From Chitinophaga arvensicola (GTDB lineage: Bacteria > Bacteroidota > Bacteroidia > Chitinophagales > Chitinophagaceae), in assembly GCF_900110835.1 (NCBI RefSeq), contig NZ_FOJG01000001.1, forward strand, positions 941,022-1,005,021: a DNA stretch of 64,000 nt, given 5' to 3'. The notes below the pieces were generated by a model. It had not been told where the DNA came from and searched no databases. It saw only the letters and a list, made by a program, of their open reading frames with translations. Positions within the stretch are counted from its first letter, which is position 1. Every line of letters starts with the position of its first letter. Below, in pieces: positions 42,913-63,950 of this stretch. The translations under genes and the position numbers were made by a program.

Positions 42913-44237
42913 AGCAAAATTGTCAGAAGGGTTTCAGCGTCTTCGTTTATGATTTCAAGTACGACGACCTTACCAAGATTGTATATAATGAACTGTTAAG
43001 GAATAAGAAGGCGTATAAAGTTCCGCCGAAATTTTGTGTGATCAACTTTGATGATCTGTCGTATTCGCACAGGTGCAATCCGTTAGATCCTCAGATGATG
43101 ACCGACATTACTGATGCCGCAGAGTCAAGTAGGTCACTACTTTTAGGGTTAAACCGAAGCTGGGTTGCGCGTGGTGGGGATTTCTTCGTGGAGTCCCCAA
43201 TAAATTTTATCACTGCGGTAATTTGGTTTTTACGGCGGTATAAAAATGGGAGATTTTGCACATTGCCCCACGTGATAGAGATAATTTCTCTAGGCTATGA
43301 ATCACTCTTTCCTATGCTCGGGGTTTTCGATGAACTGACCTCGTTAGTCGATCCGTTCATCCAAGCCTATTGTAATAATGCCCGAGAGCAACTTGAAGGT
43401 CAGATAGCATCTGCAAAAATTGCGCTGGCACGACTATCCTCACCGCAGCTTTACTATGTCTTATCGGGCGACGACTTCAGCCTGGATATTAACAATCCAG
43501 ATGAACCAAAGGTGTTTTGCGCGGGCAATAACCCATTAAAAATTCAGACTTACGGCGCTGTGCTCTCCCTGTACACAAACAGGATGCTGAAGTTGGTAAA
43601 CCGCAAAGGACAGTTAAAATGTTCACTGATCTTCGATGAGTACCCTACGATTTATTGTCCACTACACGTAACCGTTAGTACCGGCAGGTCGAATTTGATA
43701 CAAACCTGGATTGCAGTTCAAAGTATCGAGCAGGTACGTATGGATTATAGCAAGGAACAGGCAGAAGTTCTATTTAGTGTTTGCGGAAACATTATCAGCG
43801 GCCAAAGTGTTGGGGATTCCGCTAAAATTGTAAGTGAACGTATCGGTAAAATCGTACAGGAGCGCGAAAGTGTTAGCATCAACAGAACAGATACTTCCGT
43901 GAGCCGAAATACCAACCTGGAATATGCCGTACCGCAATCCAAAATCTCGAATCTTACTGCCGGTGAATTTTGCGGCGTGGTGGCTGACAATCCCACAGAG
44001 CCGATTGAACTGAAAGCCTTCAATGCGCAGTTCGTCAATGATCATAAAGCGATCAAGGATGAGCAGGATAGCTACGTTCCGTTACCGAAAATTCGAGATG
44101 TAACAGAGGAAGAAGTGATGGAAAACTATAACCAGATAAAGGCAGATATTATCGAGATGGAACAGGATGTAATGGCAATGATAAAAGGAGATCCGAATCT
44201 AGCTCACCTATTATTTGTCCATCCGGATAATAAGTAA
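42846..44237 (+). CDS. Coupling protein (VirD4/TraG type), C-terminal ATPase fragment
   Basis: 463 residues if started at ATG 42846, although true homology begins near 42879 with GKSYYLVREV. It holds the rest of the RecA-like ATPase: VFVYDFKYDDL after the P-loop, Walker B-like LKCSLIFDEYPT, and the C-terminal all-alpha part. Without the preceding frame it lacks membrane anchor and an intact Walker A. A five-base surplus (42874-42878) is enough to explain the break. In the present sequence the element probably cannot be transferred by its own coupling protein unless this is a sequencing error or is suppressed. Confidence 0.85.
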   Translation: MSTCWAARFELGKSYYLVREVIKQNCQKGFSVFVYDFKYDDLTKIVYNELLRNKKAYKVPPKFCVINFDDLSYSHRCNPLDPQMMTDITDAAESSRSLLLGLNRSWVARGGDFFVESPINFITAVIWFLRRYKNGRFCTLPHVIEIISLGYESLFPMLGVFDELTSLVDPFIQAYCNNAREQLEGQIASAKIALARLSSPQLYYVLSGDDFSLDINNPDEPKVFCAGNNPLKIQTYGAVLSLYTNRMLKLVNRKGQLKCSLIFDEYPTIYCPLHVTVSTGRSNLIQTWIAVQSIEQVRMDYSKEQAEVLFSVCGNIISGQSVGDSAKIVSERIGKIVQERESVSINRTDTSVSRNTNLEYAVPQSKISNLTAGEFCGVVADNPTEPIELKAFNAQFVNDHKAIKDEQDSYVPLPKIRDVTEEEVMENYNQIKADIIEMEQDVMAMIKGDPNLAHLLFVHPDNK

Positions 44238-46979: not shown

Positions 46980-47573
46980 ATGGAAATTACTACTAAAATA
47001 GTAGCTGGAATCAACGAACAGGACGATACTGCCTTTACTGCAGTTTTCGGCGCGTTCAATAGAGAGTTGCATTTGTTTGCGTTTCGCTTTACTAACAGCC
47101 AGAAGCGGGCCGAAGATTTTGTACAAGACACTTTTATTGAACTGTGGAATTACCGCAGCTTTACCAGCCCGGATCATATTCGTGCCTTTCTTTATGCAGT
47201 TCTGAGAAATCGTTGTTACAATTACATCACTAAACAAAAGATCGAAGAAAAGGCTAGGGCTGTACTTCTGAGCCGCCTGCAAGACCAACAGGACAGAGGA
47301 CTTGAGCATGATCAGCTCACCCTTTCCTTCTTTGAGGAATTTGAAAAAGACCTGGAGAAATTATCAGAAAAACACCGCCAGGTGTATCGCCTTCATCACA
47401 AAGAAGGTTTTACGCTAAAGGAAGTAGCTGAGATCCTGAAGCTGAGAATAAGGACGATATATAACTACAACAACGAAATCACCACATTTTTAAGAAATCT
47501 CTATAAGCACCGTACTACCTCATCATGGTTGATTACTATTGTGTCAATAAGCAATTTATTATCAATGCTTTAA
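46980..47573 (+). CDS. ECF RNA polymerase sigma factor (element cargo)
   Basis: 197 residues. Region 2 (FTNSQKRAEDFVQDTFIELW) and region 4 (KEGFTLKEVAEILKLRIRTI) are present, with a hydrophobic C-terminal tail. First gene of the third sigma-FecR-SusC-SusD set; expected to be controlled by the next gene. The ATG at 46980 is the only sensible start. Confidence 0.92.
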   Translation: MEITTKIVAGINEQDDTAFTAVFGAFNRELHLFAFRFTNSQKRAEDFVQDTFIELWNYRSFTSPDHIRAFLYAVLRNRCYNYITKQKIEEKARAVLLSRLQDQQDRGLEHDQLTLSFFEEFEKDLEKLSEKHRQVYRLHHKEGFTLKEVAEILKLRIRTIYNYNNEITTFLRNLYKHRTTSSWLITIVSISNLLSML

Positions 47574-47747
47574 GCCTATACTCAAAAAAACGCTAAACTT
47601 TTCCTAAACTTTTTTTCAAATCTTCAGTAAAAACAGGGGTGGGAGTTTGTTGTATTTGTATGGGGAACTTGACGAGGTGAAAGCGTCCTCCCTATACCTG
47701 GTGGTTAAGTAGTAGCGCATTTTTTCGAATTAAAAGTTTAACTGCCA

Positions 47748-48926
47748 ATGGATCAAGAAAGCCTTGCAGGTATTTTTTCCATTCTTAAAAAGAAAAGGGA
47801 AAATCCTGACAACGACGAAGCCCTAACTCCTGAAGAACAGGTTGCTCTTTCGGTTTGGCTTGAAGATGTTCATAACCTTCAATGGTATGAAGAATACATC
47901 TTAAATAAAGAGGGAGCTATGAATGCTCTTTTTCTCCAAACCCTTGACGCCGAAGAGAACACCAGAAAGCGGTTGAAGGGGTTTACAAGATCACGTAAAA
48001 GTAGCATGATCCGAAGATTATCTTATGCTGCAGCAGCAGCCGTGGTTGCAGGACTGGTTTTCGTTTCGATTTTAAACAGGCAGTCAGTTAGAGATAAGTA
48101 TACATCATTGCCGGCATCCGGCGCCATGCAGCCTGGCAAAGATCGGGCATATCTCACACTGGCTGACGGCTCCATCGTTGATTTAGATACGGCTACTGGC
48201 GCAGCAATAGCCCGACAAAAAGGCGCTGTTATCTCTAATCGTGGTGGAGAGGTTACATACAACGGTACGGGTATTCATGAGAACGAGTTTAATTCTATTT
48301 CAATTCCGAACGGCGGTCAGTACCGCCTGCAGCTCCAGGATGGGAGCAAGATTTGGCTCAATGCCGCCACTACTCTACGGTTTCCGGTGCAATTCGGCGA
48401 AGTAGAGCGGTCAGTAGAACTGGATGGCGAGGCGTACTTCGAAATCACCAAAGATCGGCGGCCATTTCGTGTAAAGTATCAGAGTCAAAATGGACGCAAT
48501 TTTACAGTAAATGTCCTGGGTACACATTTCGTAGTATCTGCCTACAAAGACAATACTACAGCCGCTACGACGCTGGTTGAAGGACGCGTCAGCCTGGGGA
48601 TCGCGGGTAAGGATGTGTTGCTGTCCCCAGGCCAGCAGGCGACAACTGTTAGCGGGTCCGATAGGATTGACTTAAAAACAGTGGACACGGATGCTGCTAA
48701 GGGATGGGTAACTGGTAGCTTCTATTTTATAGACAGCGATCTACGGACAATTCTAAGCAGTATTGGTAGGTGGTACAATGTTCCAGTCCTTTACGAGAAG
48801 GACTACGCCGGGGAACTTTTTTCCTGCAAACTAAGCCGATCAGCACCGTTAGATAGCGTCCTGGTCAGCTTGCGACAGTTTGATGTTAAAGCGGACGTAA
48901 TTAATAATAAGATAGTAATCAGATAG
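47748..48926 (+). CDS. FecR-type anti-sigma factor (element cargo)
   Basis: 392 residues. Cytoplasmic N-terminal helices, one membrane helix (about 88-107, LSYAAAAAVVAGLVFVSIL), FecR core with LTLADGSIVDLDTATG and LQDGSKIWLNAATTLRFP, and C-terminal DUF4974 region (GSFYFIDSDLRTILSSIG). More diverged from the two chromosomal FecR proteins than these are from each other: the usual AWKNG.F.F reads GWVTGSFYF. 174 bp separate it from the sigma gene. Confidence 0.93.
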   Translation: MDQESLAGIFSILKKKRENPDNDEALTPEEQVALSVWLEDVHNLQWYEEYILNKEGAMNALFLQTLDAEENTRKRLKGFTRSRKSSMIRRLSYAAAAAVVAGLVFVSILNRQSVRDKYTSLPASGAMQPGKDRAYLTLADGSIVDLDTATGAAIARQKGAVISNRGGEVTYNGTGIHENEFNSISIPNGGQYRLQLQDGSKIWLNAATTLRFPVQFGEVERSVELDGEAYFEITKDRRPFRVKYQSQNGRNFTVNVLGTHFVVSAYKDNTTAATTLVEGRVSLGIAGKDVLLSPGQQATTVSGSDRIDLKTVDTDAAKGWVTGSFYFIDSDLRTILSSIGRWYNVPVLYEKDYAGELFSCKLSRSAPLDSVLVSLRQFDVKADVINNKIVIR

Positions 48927-49598: not shown

Positions 49599-52500
49599 AT
49601 GGAAAGATCTCTAAAGCGAACTGAAGGCCATCAACTTACCTACCGCCTTACTGCTATGCTCTTCATCTGTCTGCTGCTATCTGCGCCAGGGATAGCCAAA
49701 GGGTATGCCCAGGTAATTACCCTCAAATACAGTAGAGCACCGATTGCTCTTGTATTCAAAGATTTCGTTAAACAGAGTGGATATGATTTCACTTATAAAT
49801 CGGAGTGGCTCAAAAGCGCCAATCCGGTAACAGTGGATGTATCTAGTTCCGATATAGTAAAAGTCCTGGACCTGATCTTTAGCGGACAACCCCTTTCCTA
49901 TACTATCGCTGGAAAAACGATTGCTGTTTCCCCTGCTAAAATCCGCACACAGGAATCGCCCTTGGCCGACACTGGACGTAAACAACTCACCGGCATTATT
50001 ACTGACACCCTCGGCAGACCATTGCCGGGCGTTTCTGTGCTTGTTTCCCCTGGCAAACTGATGGCACAGACCGATGATAATGGCCGTTTTGTGGTGAACA
50101 ACGCTCCTGCTGGCGGCCGTATCACCTTCTCTATGATCGGTTATGCTCCTGCTGATATTCGATATCAAGACCAGGTATTTTTCAAAACCGATCTAAGACA
50201 ACAAGCTACCGCTCTGGGGAGTGTTCAAATCAATTATAGTAGCGGTTTCAGCCGCATCTCTAAGGAGAGGGCGCCAGGATCATACGCTTTCATAAGCAAC
50301 AAGATATTAGAGAGAAATGTCAACTCTAACATATTGGCTAAGTTGGACGGCGTTACACTAGGAACATATTTTAATCCAGATGCGACATCAAATTCTAAAA
50401 CTGGTATAACAGTACGCGGACAAAGCACTTTTAGTCCAAACGTAAGCAAGGACCCCTTAATTGTATTGGACAACTTTGCGTATGAGGGAGATATAAATAA
50501 TATTAACCCAAATGATATTGAAAGCATTACACTACTAAAGGATGCGGCAGCTTCTTCTATTTGGGGAGCCAGGGCTGCAAATGGGGTCCTTGTAATTATC
50601 ACTAAAAGAGGTTCGGCAAATCAACCTATAAGAGTTTCGCTTAATTCTAATGTAACAATTTCCAACAAACCCAATTTGATAAGGGACAATAGATTTATTC
50701 CTGGGGTAGAATTTGCGAAAATTGAAAAAATGGCGTTCGATAGTGGTTATTTTAATTTTACCTTAAATGATAGAGTAAGTTTTCCAGCAATTTCGCCTGT
50801 AGTTTCATTACTTGATATGGCTGCAAAAGGCAGTATTTCCAGAAGTTTTGCCGATTCTGCAATAACCGAAATATCCCAACATGACTATAGGGTGGACATG
50901 ATGGAAAATGTCTACCAAAATCCAGTAACCCAACGCCATTTTTTAAGTCTAAATGGAGGTAGCTCTAACTTCTTCTACTATTTAGGGCTTGGATATGATA
51001 ACTCCAAAGATCAGTTAAGAAGGAACGGGGCTGAACGGTTATCAATTACTTCTACAAATGTCTATACACCAAAACAATTCCTTGAGTTAACGACTACAAT
51101 GATTTATTCAAGACGGGACGTTCGAGCGAATAATTCGATAGGGTATGGATCTATTACATCTCCTTATTCACAGTTATATCCATATGCCAGCTTAGTTGAC
51201 AATGACGGTGGCCCAGGAGTCATAGCGAGAGAACACTCAGGTTATTTCAATGATAGTTTGAGGCACCTGGGATTCATGGATTGGAATTATCGACCACTTC
51301 AAGAGTTGGACTTAGCTGATAATAGCCAACAATCAAATAATATATTATTGAAGTTTGGAGCACGGGTTAAAATCACAAAGGGACTTGCGTTGGACTTGCT
51401 GTATCAGAATGAAAGAGAATCAAACGAAAGGCGAATATTTCAAGACCCTAAGAGCTATATAGTACGATCGCTTGTAAATAGCTATGCTCAATATAATGCC
51501 AGTACTAAAACTTTCAATTATCCATTCCCCAATGGAGGAATATTAAGGTCAAGTTATGGAACATTGATGGCCACCAATGCCAGGGGTCAGATCAATTATG
51601 GGAGGGATTTTGGGAAAAGCAACTTCACGGGAATTGCTGGTATTGAATTGAGGGAGACTGTTGCAAAGGCGAACGATCAAGTTTCTTATGGCTATAGTAA
51701 TGATTTCGGCACCTCTGTTTCAATCATTGATTTTCTAACTTACTTTCCTCTAAATGGCGGTGGCTCTTCAACGATACCGCCATATCCATCAGGTAGAACT
51801 GAACAGACACAGAGATTTCTATCCTATTATTCAAACCTAAGCTATTCCTATGACGATAAATATACCATTACAGTAAGTGGCAGAAAAGACGGCGCCAATC
51901 TATTTGGCGTGAAGACAAATGATAAGATCACTCCCTTGTGGTCAATTGGTACTCTTTGGAATATAACCAAAGAAAAGTTCTTTAATATCAATGGAATTGA
52001 TTATTTGTCTCTACGCTCTACATATGGATCAAATGGCAATATTTATAATGGCGGTGCGTACCTTACCTCGACTTATACTTATATCAGTGGCTATACAAAT
52101 TTACCGTTTGGCACGATAGGTCAGCCTCCAAATCCATCTTTACGATGGGAAAAAGTTAATACTTTTAATTTAGGTCTTGACTACAAATTATTTAAGAATC
52201 ATTTGAGTGGGAGTGTTGAGTATTTTGTTAAGAAAGGCAATGATCTTATTCAAGATATTTTATTACCCCCTTCAAATGGTTTTCAATCTTTTAAAGGAAA
52301 TGCTGCCAGATTTAGGAGCAGTGGTTTTGAGGTAACGGCATCTTCGAATCTTAAAATCGGACCAGGTTCATGGTCTCCAACAATTATTTTTAATACCCTT
52401 AAAGAAAAAGTATTAGAGTATTCTACAAATTACACGGCCCTTGACCTCGCACAAGCGAGATCGGGAACACCCGTTCTTGGGGGACCAACTGACGGTATTT

Positions 52501-53129
52501 ATAGCTATCAATATCTTGGAATTGATCGCGTAGGTGATCCAATTGGAGTTATAGGTAAATCCGCTTCAAAGGACTACTCCCAAATAATTAACACGACAAG
52601 TACAGATAGTCTTATTCTAAACGGGACTTCCAGACCGCGCTTTTACGGATCGTTAAGGAATAGTTTTGTATTTGGAAGGTTCGCCTTTTCCTTTATTATT
52701 CAATACAAATTCAAATATGTATTTCGGCGACCAACAACGACATTAAACCTTCAGGACTATCTCATTTCCACATCCTCGGTGAGTGGCCCCCATGAGGATT
52801 ATTTCAAATCCTGGAAAAATGCCGGAGACGAAAATTTTACAGATGTTCCCAAAATAAATTATGTGACGGACATAAATAGGAACCTTCTGTATCAATTCTC
52901 AAGCACTTTAATAGAGCCCGGAGATAACATTAGGCTTCAAGATATTTCAGTGAGTTATGATCTTCCATTGGGTAAAAATCGAAATATCAATACTTTGCAG
53001 ATATATGGTTATGCCTCAAATCTTGCAATTTTATGGCGAGCAAATAATCGCCGAATTGACCCAGACAACTATGGAACTCAAATACCGCTCGTCCGTTCAT
53101 TTTCATTAGGTATTAAAGCAAATTTTTAA
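49599..53129 (+). CDS. SusC/RagA TonB-linked outer-membrane protein, mosaic (element cargo)
   Basis: 1176 residues. Signal segment (about 17-38), STN domain (APIALVFKDFVKQSGYDFTY to about 112), carboxypeptidase-regulatory-like domain (GIITDTLGRPLPGVSVLV), then plug with LLKDAAASSIWGARAANGVL and barrel to the terminal strand SLGIKANF. Complete by family standards. Base composition changes sharply near 50230: the first ~630 bp resemble the GC-richer sigma/fecR genes, while the plug, barrel and following genes are clearly AT-rich. This points to a swapped-in ligand-specific part behind a conserved signalling front. Confidence 0.94.
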   Translation: MERSLKRTEGHQLTYRLTAMLFICLLLSAPGIAKGYAQVITLKYSRAPIALVFKDFVKQSGYDFTYKSEWLKSANPVTVDVSSSDIVKVLDLIFSGQPLSYTIAGKTIAVSPAKIRTQESPLADTGRKQLTGIITDTLGRPLPGVSVLVSPGKLMAQTDDNGRFVVNNAPAGGRITFSMIGYAPADIRYQDQVFFKTDLRQQATALGSVQINYSSGFSRISKERAPGSYAFISNKILERNVNSNILAKLDGVTLGTYFNPDATSNSKTGITVRGQSTFSPNVSKDPLIVLDNFAYEGDINNINPNDIESITLLKDAAASSIWGARAANGVLVIITKRGSANQPIRVSLNSNVTISNKPNLIRDNRFIPGVEFAKIEKMAFDSGYFNFTLNDRVSFPAISPVVSLLDMAAKGSISRSFADSAITEISQHDYRVDMMENVYQNPVTQRHFLSLNGGSSNFFYYLGLGYDNSKDQLRRNGAERLSITSTNVYTPKQFLELTTTMIYSRRDVRANNSIGYGSITSPYSQLYPYASLVDNDGGPGVIAREHSGYFNDSLRHLGFMDWNYRPLQELDLADNSQQSNNILLKFGARVKITKGLALDLLYQNERESNERRIFQDPKSYIVRSLVNSYAQYNASTKTFNYPFPNGGILRSSYGTLMATNARGQINYGRDFGKSNFTGIAGIELRETVAKANDQVSYGYSNDFGTSVSIIDFLTYFPLNGGGSSTIPPYPSGRTEQTQRFLSYYSNLSYSYDDKYTITVSGRKDGANLFGVKTNDKITPLWSIGTLWNITKEKFFNINGIDYLSLRSTYGSNGNIYNGGAYLTSTYTYISGYTNLPFGTIGQPPNPSLRWEKVNTFNLGLDYKLFKNHLSGSVEYFVKKGNDLIQDILLPPSNGFQSFKGNAARFRSSGFEVTASSNLKIGPGSWSPTIIFNTLKEKVLEYSTNYTALDLAQARSGTPVLGGPTDGIYSYQYLGIDRVGDPIGVIGKSASKDYSQIINTTSTDSLILNGTSRPRFYGSLRNSFVFGRFAFSFIIQYKFKYVFRRPTTTLNLQDYLISTSSVSGPHEDYFKSWKNAGDENFTDVPKINYVTDINRNLLYQFSSTLIEPGDNIRLQDISVSYDLPLGKNRNINTLQIYGYASNLAILWRANNRRIDPDNYGTQIPLVRSFSLGIKANF

Positions 53130-53132: not shown

Positions 53133-54506
53133 ATGAAGAAGATAGCTTATACGATCGCTGCTCTCATAATCATTTCTGGATGTAAAAAGCAGGACGAATT
53201 TCTTGACAAGAAATATAACCTCGGTGACGTAGTACCCAAAACTTTAGAAGATTTTCAAGGATTACTAAATAATGATGGCGTCTTTAATGCCACTTATTCT
53301 TCACTTGGAAATATTTCATCAGATTTCTATTTTTTAAATGATGCTGACTACTCAACCTTACAACCAACAGAGCGTAATTTATATGCCTGGAAAAAAGAAA
53401 TATTTGAGGATGGCTATAATGGTGATTGGAATGCCGCATATAAACGAATTTTCTATTCTAATGTAATTCTTGAAAAATTAAACGATGTTGTAAAAAGTCA
53501 AGATAATGATATTCAGTATAATCAAATAAAAGGAACCGCTCTATTTATGCGTGCATATTCGCACTATCAACTTGTCCAGTGTTTTTCAATACCCTATGCG
53601 AATGCAACCGATGAAAGTCTCGGAATACCATATAAAATTTCATCTGATGTCAATATAAAAAACGGAAGAATGCCAGCTAAAGAGGTATACAATAATATCT
53701 TAAAAGACCTTAAACTTGCGGTCAATTTGTTACCTTTTCGAGCTTCGTTTAAAACTCAACCAGACAAAAATTCCAGCAGAGCACTATTGGCTAAAATCTA
53801 TCATGCAATCGGTGATTATAATAGTTCATATTATTATTCAGATACGGTGATCCTTGACAACCCGATGTTAATTGATTATTCTACTATAAATACCGCTCCC
53901 TTTTTCCCGTTTTCAAGCCTTATAAAGACGAATCCAGAGATATTGTTTTATGCTTCAAATTCTTCATATCGTATTCTTGGCCCTTTTGGGCCTGCCCAGG
54001 TTGACTCAAATTTATACAGGTCGTTTTCGAATGATGATTTGAGAAAAACACTATACTATATGAATAATGCAATTACGAATAATCGTATAGTGTATCGGGG
54101 AAGTTATGCAGGCGGAGCACAATTTGGAGGGTTGCTCACTTCGGAAATGTATTTTATTAAAGCAGAGGCTTCCATAAGAAAAGGTAGGGTAGAAGAAGGA
54201 ATAAGCTTGTTAAACAAGCTATTGCTGACGAGGTTTAAACCTGGCAGGTTTACTCCATACGGAATATTAAGTAGTGCAGAGGCATTGAAGATTCTTTTTC
54301 GTGAAAAAGGGTTGGAGCTATCATTTGTAGGACAAGTTCGATGGGAGGATCTACGAAGATTGAATACCGAACCAACCTATTCAAGTATACTTAGACGCCG
54401 TATCTCTAATGTGGATTATGAATTGGCCCCTAATAGCCCTCGCTATGCGCTGCCTATACCTAATTCAGAGTTGCAAATAAATAATCTTCCACAGAATCCA
54501 AGATAA
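53133..54506 (+). CDS. RagB/SusD family lipoprotein (element cargo)
   Basis: 457 residues. Lipobox IISGC followed by KKQDEFLDKK, then SusD-type helices (IKGTALFMRAYSHYQLVQCF) and the C-terminal REKGLELSFVGQVRWEDLRR. 3 bp after susC. AT-rich like the barrel part of its partner. Substrate unknown; a peptide or modified peptide is an inference from the neighbouring genes. Confidence 0.93.
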   Translation: MKKIAYTIAALIIISGCKKQDEFLDKKYNLGDVVPKTLEDFQGLLNNDGVFNATYSSLGNISSDFYFLNDADYSTLQPTERNLYAWKKEIFEDGYNGDWNAAYKRIFYSNVILEKLNDVVKSQDNDIQYNQIKGTALFMRAYSHYQLVQCFSIPYANATDESLGIPYKISSDVNIKNGRMPAKEVYNNILKDLKLAVNLLPFRASFKTQPDKNSSRALLAKIYHAIGDYNSSYYYSDTVILDNPMLIDYSTINTAPFFPFSSLIKTNPEILFYASNSSYRILGPFGPAQVDSNLYRSFSNDDLRKTLYYMNNAITNNRIVYRGSYAGGAQFGGLLTSEMYFIKAEASIRKGRVEEGISLLNKLLLTRFKPGRFTPYGILSSAEALKILFREKGLELSFVGQVRWEDLRRLNTEPTYSSILRRRISNVDYELAPNSPRYALPIPNSELQINNLPQNPR

Positions 54507-54512: not shown

Positions 54513-56033
54513 ATGATAGTATTCGTATTTAATAGGCCAAGTGTTAGGATTCAGAACTCATTCAGGTTCTCCTTATTTATATTTTTGGTTTCAGTGACTG
54601 TTATATTCTCAGCCGGGAACATAAGTACCGAACATGGTTCAATGCTATTTAAGGACGCGAGGATTGCTATCGAGATCGACTCCGCATTAACTTACGATTC
54701 CTTAGAGTTAAAAGTATCCTCTACTTTATTCGGACAGGCAGGTCTTGATGATGCTTTTTCGGATAGATATGTTTTGTCATCAGCCTCCAATATATACAAC
54801 TTCGATTTCAAGTTATTAAATGACATCTCATATTTTTCTGTTTATGGGTACAAAATTGATAAATCAGGTTCGCATAAAGTATTGCTTGCAGAAAACTATC
54901 TTATCGAGTCCGGAGATAGTATGAGGGCGGTTATCTTATCAAAGGGGTATAAAAATGAAAACTATTTCCCCTTAATCTTTAAAGGCCTAGGTGCCGAAAA
55001 GAATAATTGCCTTAAGGTGATAAACCGAATCAGATACTTTGGATTAGGAAACAATAAAATTAATCAATACTCAAAGGAGTTTGGATTCATAAACAACCCT
55101 CTACTCGCGGCTATGTTAAACACTGTCAATGACTATAGAGGAAGTATGTCAGGTCGCTCTTATGATAAGATTCTGCTTGACTGCCTAGCATGGGAAGCAA
55201 GTATAAAATCTACAGTTTTCAATCAACGATGGATAAAGGGGGACAAAAACACACGGGATTCACTTAGGAGTCAAGATGTCAAATATTTAGTCGATGATTT
55301 TAATGGATCGGACTCATCAATTTTGTACGAATCTTTATACTACTATCAATACCTAATTTATAGAAGTTTAAATCGCTTACTAGTCGAAAATCAAACTACC
55401 AATATTGATTCGCTGTATTTTACAGCCGTTAACGATTATGATGGAATTATGCAACAAAAGATTGCTATAACCCTGCTTCGAAAAAGTTTCTCTATATTCT
55501 ATAATCCTGATTCAATTCTCAGATACTCTGATCATATTTTTGTTGATCCGTTGTATCGTAGAGAGTTTATACGACTTCAAGCCGCAAACTCTCCTACCAT
55601 TGCTAAGGACTTCGTGCTCCCTGATTCTGAGGATAGCTTGATTGCATTATCCAGTTTTAAAAATAAAATCATTGTTTTAGATTTTTGGTTTACAGGTTGT
55701 AAACCATGTAGATCGTTTTATCAGGAACACTTAAAATTGGTCGAGGATAAATACAAGAATGATTCTAATGTAAAATTTATCACTATCTCAGTTGATAGAG
55801 ATTCACTTGTTTGGAAAAAAAGTTTGACCCAGGGAATATATACATCTAATCAATCTATAAATTTATTCACAAATGGGAAAGGTGAACGACATGAGGTAGT
55901 TTTCGATTACAATGTATATGCTTATCCCAAAATAATTGTTATCGGAAGGAATGGACTAGCTTGGAATGATCGTCGAAACATTTCGTTACGAAGCAGTGCC
56001 GGTTTAATAAATTTGATTGAGTCGCTCAAATGA
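54513..56033 (+). CDS. TlpA-like protein with C-terminal thioredoxin domain
   Basis: 506 residues. An N-terminal hydrophobic segment (FRFSLFIFLVSVTVIFSAG) acts as signal or anchor, a long helical middle has no recognised family, and the last ~150 residues are a TlpA/ResA-type thioredoxin fold with active site FTGCKPCRSF and the cis-Pro segment AYPKI. Expected in the periplasm as a thiol-disulfide oxidoreductase. It is cotranscribed with susCD (6 bp gap). Large TlpA proteins behind susCD are common in Bacteroidota; here it also faces the Cys-pair proteins and the MauE-type protein encoded on the other strand, which may be its redox partners. Confidence 0.88.
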   Translation: MIVFVFNRPSVRIQNSFRFSLFIFLVSVTVIFSAGNISTEHGSMLFKDARIAIEIDSALTYDSLELKVSSTLFGQAGLDDAFSDRYVLSSASNIYNFDFKLLNDISYFSVYGYKIDKSGSHKVLLAENYLIESGDSMRAVILSKGYKNENYFPLIFKGLGAEKNNCLKVINRIRYFGLGNNKINQYSKEFGFINNPLLAAMLNTVNDYRGSMSGRSYDKILLDCLAWEASIKSTVFNQRWIKGDKNTRDSLRSQDVKYLVDDFNGSDSSILYESLYYYQYLIYRSLNRLLVENQTTNIDSLYFTAVNDYDGIMQQKIAITLLRKSFSIFYNPDSILRYSDHIFVDPLYRREFIRLQAANSPTIAKDFVLPDSEDSLIALSSFKNKIIVLDFWFTGCKPCRSFYQEHLKLVEDKYKNDSNVKFITISVDRDSLVWKKSLTQGIYTSNQSINLFTNGKGERHEVVFDYNVYAYPKIIVIGRNGLAWNDRRNISLRSSAGLINLIESLK

Positions 56034-56040: not shown

Positions 56041-56346
56041 TTAGTACGCAGGATTAAGATCGACAAAGTTTCCGAATTTTATTGCAATGGCGTCCTCAAT
56101 ACGAATTCTGCCTTGATAATCCGGGAGGGCATATGATGTAATTACACAGCTTTCATTTTCTTGCACTATGCAGAGATAATCAACTCCCTCTAAGTCTGAG
56201 GTGATAGATTCGCTCAAGTGATAATATACCGAATCATTATAATCAACTGCCCAGGCATAATAATCAACATTATGATGAGTTACCAGTGCTATCGTTGCCG
56301 ATGCAATAATTGTAAATAGCCCTTTAAATTTATATGTATTAAGCAT
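56041..56346 (-). CDS. DUF6520-like secreted small protein, divergent paralogue C
   Basis: 101 residues from ATG 56346. A longer frame to 56433 exists but overlaps paralogue A and its hairpin, while the chosen Met starts a signal-like segment (LFTIIASATIALV). Shares with its two paralogues the order W-x-V-D, DSVYYHLSE, YLCIVQENESC and the ending FVDLNP. The pair Cys-x7-Cys is kept, but the GGGDE block is lost. Convergent with the TlpA-like gene (7 bp). Most diverged of the three. Confidence 0.68.
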   Translation of the reverse strand: MLNTYKFKGLFTIIASATIALVTHHNVDYYAWAVDYNDSVYYHLSESITSDLEGVDYLCIVQENESCVITSYALPDYQGRIRIEDAIAIKFGNFVDLNPAY

Positions 56347-56375
56347 GCGATAGAACGGCTTAAATAGACTGTATA

Positions 56376-56406
56376 GAAGAGCGTAGCCTATTTGGCTACG
56401 CTCTTC
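56376..56406 (-). terminator. Hairpin between paralogues A and C
   Basis: Perfect 13-bp inverted repeat (56376-56388 and 56394-56406, loop of 5), 7 bp after the stop of gene A and 29 bp before the start of gene C on the minus strand. U-tract weak. Likely a partial terminator or mRNA stabiliser that favours expression of A over C; in the plus direction it could end the susCD-tlpA transcript. Confidence 0.7.
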
Positions 56407-56413
56407 GTAATTT

Positions 56414-56767
56414 TTACTTAGTTGGGTCGGCATCTACAAACTTGGCGCCGGCAACCAGAACGTCACCAGTGGCAATATTTGATTTAGCATAACGTTTCCT
56501 CAGCGTAACAGGTTCAATTGTGATTAGAGCTGGGTCAATGTTAATGGTACAGGTTGTGTTTGATTGCAAATTGCAAAAGTACTGTTGATTCAGGACTTCG
56601 TCACCTCCTCCTACTTCTTCTGCCAGATAGTAGTAGTTGGCGTCACTTGTGTCTACTCCCCACGGTTCTTTTGGTAATAACTCGTTGGGGGTAGCTTTAA
56701 AGGCAAATGCTGCGGCTAGTGCTAATACACATGCCAGCATCGTAAAAAGGCTTTTCGCACTTTTCAT
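56414..56767 (-). CDS. DUF6520-like secreted small protein, paralogue A
   Basis: 117 residues with a strong Sec signal peptide (KSLFTMLACVLALAAAFAF). Mature part: WGVDTSDANYYYLAEEVGGG then YFCNLQSNTTCTI, with exactly two mature cysteines spaced Cys-x7-Cys, and the ending KFVDADPTK. The block DANYYYLAEEVGGGDE is identical in paralogue B. The Pfam-type call (DUF6520, small secreted Bacteroidota proteins) is from memory of the motif and should be checked. Lies 76 bp after the LanKC-like gene, same strand. Could be a substrate peptide of that kinase or of the redox proteins. Confidence 0.75.
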   Translation of the reverse strand: MKSAKSLFTMLACVLALAAAFAFKATPNELLPKEPWGVDTSDANYYYLAEEVGGGDEVLNQQYFCNLQSNTTCTINIDPALITIEPVTLRKRYAKSNIATGDVLVAGAKFVDADPTK

Positions 56768-56843: not shown

Positions 56844-57629
56844 CTAAAGGAATTTTTTACAGTATAAAATTAATTGCTCTGACATATCCCTAGGTGACGG
56901 ACGATTTAGTGGATTGGGGTCAATGCAGGCTAATGCCAAATCGCACAACGTAGCATTAGCGCAAATAGCCAATAGATTCTTTTGGGTAACCGAAAATTTC
57001 TTCATGTCGATTATCTTACCTGGGTGCTCGCCTGTTAATAATTTAATGGTTATGCAGCCAAGTGAGTAAACGTCCTCAGTTTTCTCCGGCTTTGCATACT
57101 TTAACTGTTCAGGCGCCACGTATCCATGTGTTCCGGAAACGAAAGGCGGGAACGGGGCCAAGTTCAAAATGTCATGCGACATTTCGAGGTCGATTAAACT
57201 GACAATTCCCTTTTTCCCAAATAGTATGTTTGAAGGAGTCAGATCACGGTGTACAATATTTAAGTTGTGTAATTCTTCTACGGCCTTTATCGTTTTAACT
57301 AATAGATCAATGATGTATCGTTGATCATCTTTGGACAAACTTGTAAATGGCCTGTCTTTTGTAGTTGTATATAATATTTGCGCAAGACTTTTCCCTTTTA
57401 TTTTTTTTGTAATTAAGTACGTGTAGTCACCTTCTTTTATTATACTAATAAGTTTTGGAACAGATATCTTGCCTTCTAACTGCAAAAATATTTTAGATAG
57501 CCATATGAGCCGATCTTCTGTGGTCCTGCCAATGGGATCAATGCTACTATTTGGCATAGCCTCTTTAATGATTATACTTTTTGGAAGCAGCCATTTAAAG
57601 TATAATCCCGAATATATTCCACCACGCAC
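56844..57629 (-). CDS. LanKC-like protein, kinase part (frameshifted gene)
   Basis: 261 residues from GTG 57629, but the frame is open without a stop to 57869 and the upstream ~80 residues belong to the same protein (they include IPKKEKPPFL and the kinase beta1 strand KYIVKRPISRSVRGG). Seen: ATP-site K22 in IIIKEAMP, catalytic loop H127-R128-D129 with N134 (HRDLTPSNILFG), D147 in LIDLE and GTHGYVAPEQ. The phrases KEAMP and IDLE instead of the usual DFG match the kinase of class III/IV lanthionine synthetases (KEARP, IDFE). No LanC cyclase domain follows; the protein ends after the kinase. Role inferred: phosphorylation of Ser/Thr in a peptide. Confidence 0.78.
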   Translation of the reverse strand: MRGGIYSGLYFKWLLPKSIIIKEAMPNSSIDPIGRTTEDRLIWLSKIFLQLEGKISVPKLISIIKEGDYTYLITKKIKGKSLAQILYTTTKDRPFTSLSKDDQRYIIDLLVKTIKAVEELHNLNIVHRDLTPSNILFGKKGIVSLIDLEMSHDILNLAPFPPFVSGTHGYVAPEQLKYAKPEKTEDVYSLGCITIKLLTGEHPGKIIDMKKFSVTQKNLLAICANATLCDLALACIDPNPLNRPSPRDMSEQLILYCKKFL

Positions 57630-57823
57630 TGAGCGTGAAATTGGCCGCTTTACAATGTATTTCCCACCGACAACCTTCGGGACTTGATAGCAGTTATAAG
57701 TGAAACCAGGGCCTAGGAATGGGGGCTTTTCCTTTTTAGGTATGGCGTACTGTTTTATTTCCTGTTTTATTCCGCCAACTGCAATTTCTTTTACTCTACA
57801 GTATGCGGTGAATACTGGACCTA

Positions 57824-58315
57824 TTAAATGGATGGCGTTTTCACAGTGGGGGCCTTTATCGGTAGAAGGTTATTCAGATGATCCTTTAGCAACAAATTCA
57901 ATTGTTCATCTGTAAGAAGCATTGATATCGTCTTGCCAACTTCACCAAGAGAAAATTCACCACCGTTCTGCCGATAATTGTAGTAGCCATTTTCAACAAT
58001 ACGAAACGAAATGTTATGATTTTTTAAGAATTTTATGATTGTTTTGAGGACGGAAAGAGTATCCTGGGTGTTGCACGAAATAAATGTCACCCATTTGTGG
58101 TGATAATTTGTAGTCCCCACATAAAGAAACCTGCCCACCCTCTGGTATTCAATCCCATTTCCCTCCAAAATCTCGCTGTAATCTTTTATATCCAAAGCCT
58201 CAATGAACTCCCGATAGGGATTTCCCGGTTGAAGCCTATATGTATCGTTTCGGAAGACCGTTTTGACCTCCTTCTGATTGTTATTAGATCCTGGTATCAA
58301 TAATTTTCCACGCAT
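57824..58315 (-). CDS. LanKC-like protein, N-terminal lyase-like part (frameshifted gene)
   Basis: 163 residues; the last ~10 are out of frame. It matches the N-terminal region of LanKC/RamC proteins in order: KWVTFISCNTQDTLSVLKTI (family: GWKxHVSATxxNA), NISFRIVEN (VxFKFxxD), EVGKTISMLLTDEQ (SSGKFITxYPxDE), and then, in the kinase frame, GPHCENA...GPVFTAYCRV (GPYILSD...RYGGF). One extra base in the G5 run at 57848-57852 (plus strand) would join both frames into one protein of about 490 residues. In known class III enzymes this part eliminates phosphate from phospho-Ser/Thr to make dehydro residues. Confidence 0.72.
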   Translation of the reverse strand: MRGKLLIPGSNNNQKEVKTVFRNDTYRLQPGNPYREFIEALDIKDYSEILEGNGIEYQRVGRFLYVGTTNYHHKWVTFISCNTQDTLSVLKTIIKFLKNHNISFRIVENGYYNYRQNGGEFSLGEVGKTISMLLTDEQLNLLLKDHLNNLLPIKAPTVKTPSI

Positions 58316-58332: not shown

Positions 58333-58812
58333 TTAGATAGAATACTTTTCCTTCACGGAAACGAGGATTGTGTTATCTTCATTATCATCATGCTTCAACT
58401 TTTTACAAAGCACGTATCCCCAAAATGAAATTGCAGTAAAAGCTATATTAATAAATAAGTGGGGCCCCCAGCCGATTTGAGGAAATACACCTCCGCATGA
58501 GCAAGGGACACGGCTATATACTGCCTTACTCAGAATAACTCCAACATAAACTGTAAACACAAACATCATTATGGTTGACATGAGGAAGGCAAATTTCCTA
58601 GTTGGCCGAAAGAAAAGTAGAATCGAGGCAATGTATTCAGCAGCAGGTATTAGTATCACAAGCAGGGGTGTCCATCTATTATCCATCGGCTGATTATTCA
58701 TCGCGCCAACAAAGCCTTTGAAATCCAAAATCTTCGATGTTGCTGTATAGACAAACAACAAGGTGATAAGTATGGAAAAGATTTCTACAACTACGAAGTT
58801 TTTCCTGCTCAT
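58333..58812 (-). CDS. MauE/DoxX-type redox-associated membrane protein
   Basis: 159 residues with four membrane helices. After helix 3 comes the paired-cysteine motif VPCSCGGVF, as in Bacteroidota MauE-like proteins. MauE is needed for disulfide-rich protein maturation in methylamine dehydrogenase systems, and family members probably move electrons across the membrane to periplasmic thioredoxins. 17 bp upstream of the LanKC-like gene on the same strand, so cotranscribed. Partner of the TlpA-like protein by inference. Confidence 0.82.
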   Translation of the reverse strand: MSRKNFVVVEIFSILITLLFVYTATSKILDFKGFVGAMNNQPMDNRWTPLLVILIPAAEYIASILLFFRPTRKFAFLMSTIMMFVFTVYVGVILSKAVYSRVPCSCGGVFPQIGWGPHLFINIAFTAISFWGYVLCKKLKHDDNEDNTILVSVKEKYSI

Positions 58813-58885: not shown

Positions 58886-59180
58886 CTAATGTTTAGTGAG
58901 GCTGAATTTCCCTGGCGCATATCTCACAATTTGAATGGCTTCAGCTACTACAGTGAAAATTCTATTAACCTGTGCTATGCTCATATAATCTACGTCAATT
59001 GTCCATCCGTTTATATTAACCTTCAAATAATAATAGACCACATCTTCAAATTCCATCTCAATATTCCTGTGTTCTTACATCAGAGATAATTGGAATGTAT
59101 TTCAACACAGACATTACCGCAAGTACGGCTGATCAGCCAATGATTGCTGCGGCTAATGATAATGTGAGTTTTCTAGGCAT
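58886..59180 (-). pseudogene. Possible decayed fourth copy of the small secreted protein
   Basis: On the minus strand a signal-like start at 59180 (MPRKLTLSLAAAIIG) is cut by a TGA after 15 codons, then resumes as SAVLAVMSVLKYIP. A second frame, ATG 59056 to TAG 58886 (56 codons), includes EDVVYYYLKV, reminiscent of the DANYYYLAE block of the paralogues, but has no Cys pair. It fits a broken paralogue, yet the similarity is short; the 56-codon frame may also be an independent small gene. Confidence 0.3.
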
Positions 59181-59207
59181 AAGATATTCACTACCTGAAA
59201 GGGATTG

Positions 59208-59549
59208 TTATTTTGTTGGATTGAGATCAACAAACTTTCTATTAAGAAAGATTACAAATATTACTCCACTCTTTAGTATTCTTAACTTTCCGGTAATAGG
59301 GTCGACGGTAATGTTAACCACATCTATCTGTATAGTACATGTAGTATTTGACTGCACATTACATAAGTAATCTATTCCTTCAATTTCATCACCACCACCA
59401 ACTTCCTCTGCTAAATAATAGTAGTTTGCATCACTGGATTCTACGGCCCAAGGTTCAGTAGATTTCAACGGCTTCTTCACTGAACTAAATGCGCATAAGA
59501 TAGCAACACATGTAGGCAGAAGCGCCCTAAAGACAGCAGGTAGTTTCAT
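59208..59549 (-). CDS. DUF6520-like secreted small protein, paralogue B
   Basis: 113 residues with a signal-type N-terminus (FRALLPTCVAILCAFSSV). Contains WAVESSDANYYYLAEEVGGG and YLCNVQSNTTCTI, and ends KFVDLNPTK. Sequence between the Trp and the second Cys is nearly the same as in paralogue A, while the signal peptides and the region after the Cys pair differ strongly, so selection appears to act on the YYYL and Cys-loop part. First gene of the leftward cargo group (B, remnant, MauE, LanKC-like, A, C). Confidence 0.75.
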   Translation of the reverse strand: MKLPAVFRALLPTCVAILCAFSSVKKPLKSTEPWAVESSDANYYYLAEEVGGGDEIEGIDYLCNVQSNTTCTIQIDVVNITVDPITGKLRILKSGVIFVIFLNRKFVDLNPTK

Positions 59550-59782: not shown

Positions 59783-60745
59783 TTATTCTTTTTTTCGCAA
59801 ACCACGCGTGTATTCCTGTATTGTACAACCGAAGTAATCAGAAAAGGTACGGCGAAGTTGGCTTTCGCTATATCCGACCTGGCTGGCAATCACTACGACT
59901 TTCTCTCCTTTATTCAGCAGCTCCACTGCGCGACGGATTTTTGTTTCAATACGATAATCACTGATTGACATTCCGTATACAAGCGAAAACCAAGTACGGA
60001 GCTGATAATGGTTAAGGTCCGTGGCCTTCGAAAGCTCTTCCGTTGTATGTGTGACCTTTAAATCAGAAGTGATAATCTCCCTTATTTGATATACTCTACC
60101 GATTTCATCATCGCTCAATTTGTTTTTGGGTGTACTATTTTTAAGCAATGTCATTTCTATTGCGTAATCCGCTGCCTCTGCCTGCCAGTCGATGTCTCCC
60201 CCACCCTCCAGTGCGTTCCCCAGCATCATAAGCAAATTATAGTCAGCAATAAGGCGATGCTTCGACAGTTTGGTGGGTTCGTTCTCCCTCATCCGCCATA
60301 GTACTTCCTTTGCACGCTCAAAGCGAAAGCTATGCTTATGGAATACATCTGGCGCCATACAAAGGAGAATACTGCGACTTGTATTGTCCGTTATGTGAAT
60401 CTTCGCCAGCCATACAGGGGCGTAATATATGGTGTAGGATCGCTCATGTAGTACAATGGGAGAAAGACCCTGTACCTGGTAACGGATCGTCCCCTGCAGG
60501 CTAAGGTGTAAAACCACCACCCCTTGAAGGTAGCTGGCATTAAGGTGGTCAGGTTGACTGCCGGAAAGAAGGGAATGGTAAATACTAAAGGGTCCGGATT
60601 GCCTACATTGTAAAACCAGGGAGTTTTTGGCCCACGACGCAGATCTCAACTGTGTTCCGGGTATGGCTAAATGAGCGTACTGATCTGGCATCACGTTAGA
60701 CAATGGCAGTTCCCCGAACCTGGAACTGCTTAGTTTTAGGTCCAT
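59783..60745 (-). CDS. AraC family transcriptional regulator
   Basis: 320 residues. The C-terminal ~100 residues hold the two AraC HTH motifs (TTEELSKATDLNHYQLRTWF and KVVVIASQVGYSESQLRRTF). The N-terminal ~200 residues are a beta-rich sensor part of unknown ligand. Base composition returns to the higher GC level here, so it likely belongs to the element backbone rather than to the AT-rich cargo. Same strand as the cargo genes, 233 bp upstream of paralogue B; it may control them. Confidence 0.88.
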   Translation of the reverse strand: MDLKLSSSRFGELPLSNVMPDQYAHLAIPGTQLRSASWAKNSLVLQCRQSGPFSIYHSLLSGSQPDHLNASYLQGVVVLHLSLQGTIRYQVQGLSPIVLHERSYTIYYAPVWLAKIHITDNTSRSILLCMAPDVFHKHSFRFERAKEVLWRMRENEPTKLSKHRLIADYNLLMMLGNALEGGGDIDWQAEAADYAIEMTLLKNSTPKNKLSDDEIGRVYQIREIITSDLKVTHTTEELSKATDLNHYQLRTWFSLVYGMSISDYRIETKIRRAVELLNKGEKVVVIASQVGYSESQLRRTFSDYFGCTIQEYTRGLRKKE

Positions 60746-61930: not shown

Positions 61931-63076
61931 ATGAAATACGAACTTGTTGAGTTGGAACAGTATATACACGATCGGTTACCTCCGGAGATACTACCTGTCG
62001 ATGAAAAGTTACGCGAAAAGGTGGCTGTCCACAGCCATTACCTATCCTTGCAGGTACAACGGCTGCGAACCATCTTTAAAGAGGACCTTGCCGCTATGAA
62101 GGACCTGGAAAGGGCCAGAATATATGTGCCGGTACACGCTCTTTCGATTCTGGATATATGCGGCCAACTTGCCAACTGGTTTCAGGCGGCAAAAGAAAAA
62201 GGCCAGAACCAGCTCATGGAATTTTACAGCCGGATAGATAGGCTGCTTAGTGACCTGCTCCAAATCCTACAAAAAACATTGCCGGCGGCATTCGATACCT
62301 CTCTACCTATCCCATTTACCATCTACAATGATCATCTGCCGCATATCCGGCAACTAATTGACGGAATTTCCGATCTTAAACCGCTGCTGGATCATCATAA
62401 CCAGCCGGTAATAGATCTTGTGCAAACGGAGATTACCAGTATTTGGGCAAGCCCACGCGAGGTAACTTATCATCTGCTGGAGTACACTACCCGGTTGCTC
62501 ACGGCATTAAGCGAAATTAAAGACCGTACTGTGCCGAATTATAGTCACTACCTGCATACCGCCGTGCTTATCCGGCTCAACTACAACTCCCCCAAATATA
62601 TAGAACGGTGTATTTTTAAACTCATCGAGAAGATGGATGAAATGAATAACCTGGAGAAACTGATCACCATTGACTTTTACGTCGATGAACTCTCTAAAAT
62701 AGTGCCCCTTAAAAGCGACTGTTTGATAAGCGATGAACACTCAGCACTCGATCAGCTCAAAGCATGGACATTCCAGGAGAAAAAAAAGTTGGAAAAGCCT
62801 TTGCTGGCCACTCAACAGCAAAAGGAATTAGAAAAGCTATTCCTCGATTTAAGTGTCGATGAGCTGGCTGCCCTGACTTATGGCGCACAAAAAGCCGGCT
62901 TTACTAGAAAGGATGATAAGCTGAATTTGTTCCGTCAGATAATTGCCTTTATCCGCACAATTGGCACCGATAATATTGCCATCGACAGCTTTGCCAACAA
63001 AACCTATAAACCAAAAGAGGCTGCTAAAGTCAGTATGCGGGCAAAACTAAGGTTGCTTGACGATGCACTGCGGTGA
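61931..63076 (+). CDS. Hypothetical element protein, RteC-like C-terminus
   Basis: 381 residues, mostly alpha-helical. Near the C-terminus LFLDLSVDELAALTYGAQKAG, with LFRQIIAFIRTIGTDNIAI further on, faintly resembles the ELVELIYGLNEMG / FGNIFQIDLSNIY layout of the neighbouring RteC protein, suggesting a distant relative, but I would not call it on this alone. Converges on rteC with 13 bp between the stops. Role unknown. Confidence 0.6.
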   Translation: MKYELVELEQYIHDRLPPEILPVDEKLREKVAVHSHYLSLQVQRLRTIFKEDLAAMKDLERARIYVPVHALSILDICGQLANWFQAAKEKGQNQLMEFYSRIDRLLSDLLQILQKTLPAAFDTSLPIPFTIYNDHLPHIRQLIDGISDLKPLLDHHNQPVIDLVQTEITSIWASPREVTYHLLEYTTRLLTALSEIKDRTVPNYSHYLHTAVLIRLNYNSPKYIERCIFKLIEKMDEMNNLEKLITIDFYVDELSKIVPLKSDCLISDEHSALDQLKAWTFQEKKKLEKPLLATQQQKELEKLFLDLSVDELAALTYGAQKAGFTRKDDKLNLFRQIIAFIRTIGTDNIAIDSFANKTYKPKEAAKVSMRAKLRLLDDALR

Positions 63077-63089
63077 CAATGCGTTCGTA

Positions 63090-63950
63090 TTACTTCGAAA
63101 ATTCATCATCATACTCATAACGACGTAAAAGGGAAAGTTTTATGCTGTCAAAAAACGGGGTGCGGGATTTTTTCTTCAGCCGATTATTTTCATACATTTT
63201 GTAAATATTGGAGAGATCAATCTGAAAGATGTTTCCAAAAAAGGTGGCCAAAGAAGAAATGGACTCTTTTTTGCCGTTCAATACCCCCATCTCGTTGAGG
63301 CCATAGATCAATTCTACAAGTTCTGCCTTATTACCGGTCCACGATATCGGGCTTAACGGCTGGCCCCCTGCAGGTGTAGCAGACGATAACCTATGTTCGA
63401 GGTATTCCTGGAGAAACGTAGCGGAAACGAGTTGGGCATACAAGTAACTCCACGGGGTATAATATCGCTTGTCCAGGAATGGTAACAAGGAGGCCCGATC
63501 ATCCCTGAGTAAAAAATTTAGCGTATCATTTTGAATCGTTGGAGGATAACGCAGAAAATAAGTCTGGTCATTGTAGGTAAAACCCAATGACAAGTAAAGC
63601 TGGTCATCTTGATGGTGAAGCAGGAAAGAACGGGTGCTGTCCAACCGCTTACGATAATACTGCTCGATGGCCTGCTGGTCTTTCTTTGGCGCAGATTGTT
63701 CGAGCTTTAGAAGGTCAGTGAAAAAGTAAGCTCTGCCATCAAACTCTGGCTTTACATACTTGAAAAAATTTATCTCTTCTTCCTCGTCATTAAAAGTGTG
63801 CCGATCAATATGAGCGTGTAACTCGGCGATAATACCTGTTACTGCCCGTAAGCATTTAGCCAAATAACTGGTGGTAACGGAGAATAATTCTAAAGATTCG
63901 TTTTGGGCGCGAACTTCTGCGAGAAGTTGGGAATACCAATGTTCTGTCAT
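63090..63950 (-). CDS. rteC: RteC-type regulator of element excision
   Basis: 286 residues. The C-terminal third has the RteC signature: WTGNKAELVELIYGLNEMG, LATFFGNIFQIDLSNIY and a basic RLKKKSRTPF near the end. In CTnDOT, RteC activates the excision genes in response to tetracycline through RteA/RteB. Neither rteA, rteB nor a tetracycline-resistance gene is in the window, and many non-tetracycline elements carry rteC alone, so the inducing signal here is unknown. It reads leftward from the right edge. Confidence 0.9.
   Translation of the reverse strand: MTEHWYSQLLAEVRAQNESLELFSVTTSYLAKCLRAVTGIIAELHAHIDRHTFNDEEEEINFFKYVKPEFDGRAYFFTDLLKLEQSAPKKDQQAIEQYYRKRLDSTRSFLLHHQDDQLYLSLGFTYNDQTYFLRYPPTIQNDTLNFLLRDDRASLLPFLDKRYYTPWSYLYAQLVSATFLQEYLEHRLSSATPAGGQPLSPISWTGNKAELVELIYGLNEMGVLNGKKESISSLATFFGNIFQIDLSNIYKMYENNRLKKKSRTPFFDSIKLSLLRRYEYDDEFSK

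Follow-up and report, generated by a model that had tools for sequence, protein, structure and literature searches.

A split and probably broken member of a family of cyclase-less class III/IV lanthionine synthetase relatives in Chitinophagaceae, beside small signal-peptide proteins with paired cysteines

Introduction

Lanthionine synthetases are dehydratase-cyclases. In ThurKC, a class III enzyme (LanKC), the lyase residues have been defined by mutagenesis (PMC10604976). As reported there, the R191A variant yields phosphorylated intermediates and the H67A variant a mixture of dehydrated and phosphorylated ones. K65A and R163A give no turnover, K94A leaves unmodified peptide only, and D152A still makes up to five dehydro residues (PMC10604976). 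Phosphorylated lantibiotics have been published as a class (PMC13219514). Modified precursors that carry export signals are also described: bufferins are Sec-exported, with a signal peptide that is, according to preliminary data, part of the recognition sequence (PMC12452194), and the modified precursor DybA bears a lipoprotein signal (PMC12636315).

The locus analyzed here lies in a 64,000-nucleotide stretch of Chitinophaga arvensicola DNA, called the window below, which covers positions 941022-1005021 of an 8.3-Mb genome. It contains a split and probably broken gene that belongs to a Chitinophagaceae family related to class III/IV lanthionine synthetases but lacking the cyclase. This gene and its relatives are referred to as LanK.

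The split LanK gene and its surroundings

The original prediction read two adjoining minus-strand frames as the lyase-like and kinase domains of a class III lanthionine synthetase that lacks its cyclase, and the coordinates and the domain matches agree with this reading. The N-terminal frame is an ORF of 163 aa (57824-58315, minus strand). The C-terminal frame is the ORF 56844-57629 (minus strand), which is open from 57869 and then gives 341 aa. The frames 58315-57824 and 57869-56844 are the halves of one RamC_N/kinase protein and are mutually out of frame. Pkinase matches the C part at 1.6e-25, as do the NCBIfam models LanL (8e-37) and LanKC (1e-27), both far under the model cut-offs. RamC_N (PF25816) gives the N piece alone 16.9 bits (E 0.0045), a weak match below the cut-off of 27, and it is above the cut-off in intact relatives, including L050 (8e-11) and L121. 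No LanC follows the window kinase: the frame stops at 56844, and the next gene starts at 56767, 76 bp downstream. The features around the gene are as follows.

46980..48926, plus strand: ECF sigma factor, FecR anti-sigma factor; both precede SusC
49599..53129, plus strand: SusC TonB-dependent receptor (Plug and barrel; STN below cut-off)
53133..54506, plus strand: SusD (SusD-like_3, 9e-32)
54513..56033, plus strand: TlpA-like thioredoxin protein with CKPC, convergent (Thioredoxin_8, 4e-13)
56041..56433, minus strand: small signal-peptide protein 3, NESC loop; true start probably the Met at about 56346
56414..56767, minus strand: small signal-peptide protein 2, DUF6520 (PF20130, 27.1 bits, cut-off 25.4)
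56844..57869, minus strand: LanK C-terminal half, last part of the lyase-like domain followed by the Ser/Thr kinase, no cyclase (Pkinase and LanL matches)
57824..57869, minus strand: overlap of both LanK frames, site of the frame change (one frame in 36 relatives)
57824..58315, minus strand: LanK N-terminal half, RamC_N-like pseudo-lyase in a separate frame (weak PF25816 match)
58333..58812, minus strand: MauE, a DoxX-like membrane protein containing CSCGG (PF07291, 2e-28, 99.5 bits against a cut-off of 27)
58889..59056, minus strand: probable relic of a further small peptide, both Cys absent, upstream frame broken (by eye)
59208..59549, minus strand: small signal-peptide protein 1, SNTTC loop, C-x7-C (ORF and Cys-pair alignment)
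59783..60745, minus strand: AraC-family regulator, upstream of the peptide, MauE and LanK genes (HTH_18, 7e-12)

On the minus strand, the order from 5' to 3' is AraC, a small signal-peptide protein, the peptide relic, MauE, the split kinase and two small signal-peptide proteins; ECF sigma factor, FecR, SusC, SusD and the TlpA-like protein converge on these genes from the plus strand. The neighbors that had been named, namely MauE, the TlpA-like protein, SusC, SusD and three Cys-pair proteins, are thus all present, and only the product of 56414-56767 passes the DUF6520 cut-off. MauE carries a C-x-C and TlpA a C-x-x-C thiol motif. The peptide relic extends over 58889-59205 (minus strand), with its C-terminal part in one frame and a signal-like stretch in another. 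The window also holds mobilization genes (integrase at 34767, relaxase at 40591, coupling protein at 42846 and RteC at 63090). They fall in the regions 34767-44237 and 61931-63950, and the relaxase is of the MobA type. The LanK locus may lie on a conjugative element, as first suggested, or outside it. A 381-aa protein at 61931-63076 has no Pfam name, and its cluster (c25) also occurs near the loci L049 and L082.

The split is either a broken gene or a sequence error, because all 36 full-length relatives are read in one frame. A programmed frameshift was rejected on the same observation. With its two halves in different frames, the window copy is probably inactive. A contig search with the window kinase part (62 pattern matches) gave no close relative with which the frame break could be tested, the full alignment of the cyclase-less proteins offered no sufficiently conserved stretch for such a search, and among the 42 listed matches of the N part in the genus Chitinophaga, the best has about 29% identity. 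A role in anti-phage defense was considered and rejected: the PADLOC matches cover the kinase domain only, and the N piece has none.

Extent of the cyclase-less family

Thirty-six full-length cyclase-less relatives were found. Their frames end after the kinase, and a C-terminal LanC-like cyclase is absent from all of them. They form 17 clusters at 50% identity, and counts over the 36 are not all independent. A search with the cyclase-less alignment gave 33 of these proteins in 27 of 79 Chitinophaga genomes. The other three belong to two other genera of Chitinophagaceae and came from a search in which 12 of 294 genomes had any RamC_N match. In a sample of the phylum, matches at 1e-40 were obtained in at least 2 of 395 genomes, namely that of the window and another from the same family; no more than four candidates were scored in each genome, and counts outside the family are a lower bound. 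Named relatives occur in Chitinophaga varians, C. eiseniae, C. fulva and C. qingshengii. The N-part matches in the genus fall into two sizes, 436-490 aa (24 of 42) and 854-917 aa (17 of 42), and the remaining match is the window itself. The window genome has a second, intact cyclase-less copy of 471 aa followed by MauE, as well as a cyclase-bearing copy, a frame of 917 aa with MauE and a thioredoxin-like gene ahead of it. The cyclase-less branch is real and conserved, and a limited literature search found no description of cyclase-less lanthipeptide enzymes.

For comparison, 13 cyclase-bearing proteins were picked by hand, not at random, from a longer list. A kinase without the lyase domain (L066_1454) was left out of the residue and neighborhood counts.

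A complementary type, in which a kinase and a LanC cyclase occur without the lyase domain, was seen at loci L066 (3031-5310), L119 (10039-12225), L135, L136 and L137. Twenty-two matches with frames of 698-786 aa cover the kinase part only, and Pfam LANC_like was confirmed for two of them. At L066 and L119, the kinase-LanC protein lies near a cyclase-less lyase-kinase protein. LanC matches number one to eight per genome in 25 of 26 genomes, many of them in frames of about 400 aa or about 620-660 aa, and the LanC frames of these 26 genomes form a large lanthipeptide-like repertoire.

Replaced lyase residues and retained kinase residues

The N-terminal domain and the LanKC lyase are homologous. 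Profile-profile comparison of the cyclase-less and cyclase-bearing families by hhalign gave a probability of 100. The AlphaFold model of the intact copy (pLDDT 87.5, pTM 0.82) has CuvL as its best fold match, with a Z score of 29.4 over model residues 7-451 and 419 residues aligned. CuvL is the sole listed match over the lyase-like domain; the others listed beside it span the kinase part alone, and ThurKC, SalKC and PneKC are among the first 15 Foldseek rows. The predicted fold is therefore that of LanKC minus the cyclase, and the placement of the N-terminal part within the LanKC lyase family, on which the original prediction depended, holds.

The lyase residues were placed on the relatives through an alignment with ThurKC and are given in ThurKC numbering. 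In the cyclase-less proteins, K65, D152 and R163 are each found in 0 of 36, H67 in two, K94 in three (22 have Arg) and R191 in three (19 gaps). An equivalent of K117 is retained in 34 of 36 (25 Lys and 9 Arg). The sampled cyclase-bearing relatives keep D152 (12/13), R163 (13/13), H67 (10/13) and K94 (9/13); they too mostly lack K65 (1/13) and R191 (1/13). The kinase residues K257, N369 and D382 are present in 36/36 cyclase-less proteins and D364 in 35/36, and these positions together with E384 are kept almost throughout in the cyclase-less and cyclase-bearing sets alike. The window halves follow the cyclase-less pattern: V, F and R stand at the positions of K65, H67 and K94, K117 is retained, and the C half has the equivalents of K257, D364, N369, D382 and E384. 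The D152 and R163 positions appear to be Ala, in a fragment alignment that is uncertain near the frame change.

Judged from the aligned residues, the lyase center is lost in the cyclase-less proteins. Because the lyase residues are lost and the kinase is intact, the enzyme probably phosphorylates without elimination or cyclization; residues and predicted fold together make phosphorylation the likely surviving chemistry. By analogy with the K65A, R163A, K94A and D152A variants of ThurKC, an enzyme that has lost lyase residues may lack a working kinase step as well, and the loss by itself is no proof of phosphopeptide release. Likewise, elimination may persist when D152 alone is lost.

The continued production of dehydrated or thioether peptides, with the lyase-like domain working through other residues or with a lyase and LanC acting in trans, has to be weighed at this point. 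It would fit the close kinship to the cyclase-bearing proteins, the Lys or Arg at K117 in 34/36, the LanC-containing genes in 25/26 genomes and the partial dehydration by ThurKC D152A (PMC10604976). The equivalents of D152 and R163 are, however, missing in 36/36, and LanC lies within about 8 kb of the cyclase-less gene at only 2 of 32 loci in 26 genomes (L066 and L119), where it belongs to the lyase-less kinase-LanC proteins. The cysteine parity of the peptides and the same Cys loop at loci without LanK, described below, also speak against it. Dehydration by the cyclase-less proteins thus appears unlikely from their sequences, and this explanation as a whole is improbable. The working lyase, and hence dehydration, that had been suggested at first is not borne out, the catalytic residues being replaced.

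Alternatively, LanK could be a dead passenger, a decaying lanthionine synthetase in a working disulfide-peptide locus with neither the lyase nor the kinase active. The split window copy with a peptide relic alongside and the loss of the lyase residues and the cyclase would be expected in that case. Against this explanation stand 36 full-length frames from 17 clusters with nearly invariant kinase residues, and it is very improbable.

In the tree of the full lyase-kinase region, the cyclase-less proteins occupy two positions: 33 group with the window, and those of L120, L121 and L124 fall among the cyclase-bearing proteins. This tree needs at least two changes. The kinase-only tree, built without K_L087 and the window N piece, does not reject a single origin (p-AU 0.366). 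Two independent losses of the cyclase and the lyase site are therefore not claimed. The window kinase groups with that of L049 (support 88/90 in the full tree and 95/91 in the kinase-only tree) on a long end branch, and the L049 locus has the same peptide type as the window (cluster c11).

Conserved neighborhood of the kinase

That the kinase and the small proteins form a neighborhood conserved in other genomes was confirmed. A small signal-peptide protein lies on the same strand within 4.5 kb at 33 of 36 cyclase-less loci. MauE lies within 2.5 kb at 28 of 36 by script and at 32 of 36 when L064, L068, L120 and L121 are counted, where PF07291 matches adjoin the kinase. A convergent SusD is present at 27/36, a convergent TlpA at 17/36 and an AraC gene within 6 kb at 22/36. 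At the level of clusters (50% identity), MauE adjoins the gene in 13 of 17. The genomes contain 4-16 copies of MauE (26 genomes) and 66 to at least 119 copies of SusD_RagB (6 genomes; PF07980 alone, the figure for the window genome being taken from 119 scored candidates). The corresponding chance rates are about 0.6% for MauE and up to 17% for SusD on either side in the densest genome. Four loci (L066, L067, L074 and L119) have no MauE in view and no convergent SusD, and five (L054, L058, L065, L069 and L070) have MauE without a convergent SusD. This layout is less common at the cyclase-bearing loci: among 13, a peptide was found at 10 (9 without two unlikely ORFs of L085), SusD at 9, TlpA at 7 and MauE at 6.

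The small cysteine-pair proteins

Signal peptides were called by a simple in-house rule. Loci without LanK are those with none within the 8-16 kb viewed, and their peptide set was chosen by eye (34 kept, 33 distinct). Eight ORFs were dropped from the comparison, seven unlike the family and one (L082_5367) whose signal was misplaced.

The three window peptides align around the Cys pair. Cys numbers are even in 49 of 54 distinct peptides at cyclase-less loci, 31 of 33 at loci without LanK and 17 of 19 at cyclase-bearing loci, where one peptide is odd and one has none. Where a peptide has two Cys, six or seven residues lie between them in 34/38 at cyclase-less, 9/15 at cyclase-bearing and 14/14 at loci without LanK. 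The Cys loop is therefore a trait of the peptide family, independent of LanK. The Ser/Thr-Cys loop had been taken as a mark of the modification site; with the same C-x6/7-C loop in 14/14 two-Cys peptides of loci without LanK, a thioether loop of this kind was rejected as diagnostic. Because the pair and MauE recur in sister loci without LanK, the Cys pair (C-x6/7-C) is more likely a disulfide than a thioether site. Even Cys counts are also what disulfides would produce. The predicted structure of the peptide family has low confidence (pLDDT 64, pTM 0.46).

The Sec signals of the candidate substrates had been flagged as unusual for cytosolic modification. The caution is fair, but Sec-exported RiPP precursors exist, as described for bufferins (PMC12452194). 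The conserved signal peptide was rejected as evidence of leader recognition, similar signals being seen by eye at loci without LanK.

DUF6520 gave 80 matches in 39 of 79 Chitinophaga genomes. The expected co-occurrence with the kinase is seen for 8 of the 80, which adjoin a RamC_N-kinase gene, and the remaining 72 lie elsewhere. The other two window peptides do not match PF20130 at its cut-off, and the three peptides of L050 and L060 score none, 19.6 and 15.8 bits (cut-off 25.4). The link of the LanK-locus peptides to DUF6520 is thus a likeness. A literature search found no papers under the names DUF6520 or NVEALA. In 31 loci viewed, which include three kinase-LanC loci chosen for another reason, DUF6520 proteins often lie beside MauE, a protein of about 350 aa, or TlpA/SusD/SusC, without LanK.

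Several of these loci have features of their own. L129 (G316:C2:2411651-2427866) holds a series of small signal-peptide proteins, about ten in all, most of which have four to six Cys; four TlpA-like genes, MauE and the ~350-aa protein are interspersed among them, and no LanK was seen there. MauE lies beside the ~350-aa family (cluster c23) at L128, L132, L134, L138, L151, L156, L157, L159, L161 and L164, usually with a small Cys peptide. The c23 family also occurs in some cyclase-bearing loci, and its member at L077 (11577-12617) has no Pfam or NCBIfam match. A DUF6520 subtype ending in GKI-F-R (L148, L149, L154, L155, L158 and L165) shares a setting beside genes for ~280-340 aa and ~155-200 aa, with no MauE or SusCD in view.

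The Ser+Thr share of the peptides is 0.192 at cyclase-less loci versus 0.177 at loci without LanK (p 0.32, no enrichment), and it is raised to 0.22 at cyclase-bearing loci (p 0.006 versus 0.177). The claim that these peptides are substrates of the cyclase-less enzyme is weakest on this point. The absent enrichment would suit a regulatory Ser/Thr kinase, whose target would be AraC, MauE, FecR or another protein and whose pseudo-lyase would be a sensing or docking domain. The otherwise complete peptide loci without LanK and the AraC gene near 22/36 also favor such a kinase. On the other hand, the kinase derives from a peptide-modifying enzyme, and the cyclase-bearing relatives also lie near small signal-peptide proteins (10/13, or 9 after ORFs were dropped) whose Ser+Thr share is the raised one. 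A regulatory role is unlikely, yet has a real chance.

Proposed function

The conserved block of the LanK kinase and small secreted two-cysteine proteins suggests an uncharacterized peptide-phosphorylating system, as far as sequences can indicate. In the proposed order of events, the pseudo-lyase would act in the cytosol as a docking domain for the signal-bearing small proteins of its own operon, and the kinase would phosphorylate Ser/Thr of the peptide before Sec export. In the envelope, the Cys pair would be oxidized to a disulfide with the help of MauE. The convergent SusCD receptor, governed in the window by the sigma/FecR pair, may recognize or take up the product, which its TlpA-like partner could reduce. 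Taken jointly, phosphorylation by a pseudo-lyase kinase before export, a MauE-aided disulfide, reception by SusCD-TlpA and a broken window copy make up a tentative reading with somewhat less than an even chance. The occurrence of like peptides with MauE and SusCD-TlpA without any LanK stands against it, as do the LanC genes elsewhere in 25 of 26 genomes, which may act in trans. The more specific claim, that dedicated peptide kinases have arisen from lanthionine synthetases by discarding the cyclase and keeping the dead lyase for docking, and make stably phosphorylated, Sec-exported, disulfide-bonded DUF6520-like peptides which a partner SusCD-TlpA system recognizes, is possible but doubtful.

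A branch with the kinase kept and the cyclase and lyase site gone would show an enzyme turning into a plain peptide kinase. If the proposal is true, it would provide a phosphopeptide branch of lanthipeptide enzymes in Bacteroidota and the first testable function around DUF6520-like/MauE/SusCD loci, and would place a kinase among the modifying enzymes of Sec-exported peptides.

Comparison with known systems

Related settings are the DUF6520/MauE/TlpA-SusD-SusC loci without LanK in the same genus. They have similar C-x6/7-C or four-Cys proteins and MauE, often with convergent SusD-SusC or TlpA, as at LanK loci. They differ in that a relative of lanthionine synthetases is absent, and a ~350-aa protein of no known family is often found instead.

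Class III LanKC enzymes (ThurKC, CuvL, SalKC and PneKC) share the lyase-like fold and the kinase in one chain and in the same order, whereas the cyclase-less proteins have no LanC and their lyase catalytic residues are replaced. L050 scores 125 bits against the NCBIfam LanKC model (cut-off 575). Class IV LanL is the best NCBIfam match, with 166 bits for L050 and 127 bits for the window kinase part; both are far under the cut-off of 650, and the cyclase is absent and the lyase residues are lost. The cyclase-bearing protein of L077 also falls short of these cut-offs, with 211 (LanKC) and 302 bits (LanL).

Class V LanK/LanY resembles the present family in that the kinase is not fused to a cyclase, as described in PMC10604976. 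Class V combines a PF01636 (APH) kinase with a separate HopA1-type lyase, whereas here a LanKC-type kinase is fused to a degenerate lyase. Bufferins and related MNIO RiPPs are alike in their Sec-signal, Cys-containing precursors that are modified and in the DoxX genes of many clusters; according to the same report (PMC12452194), their modifying enzyme is an iron-dependent oxidative enzyme, whereas that of the cyclase-less family would be a kinase.
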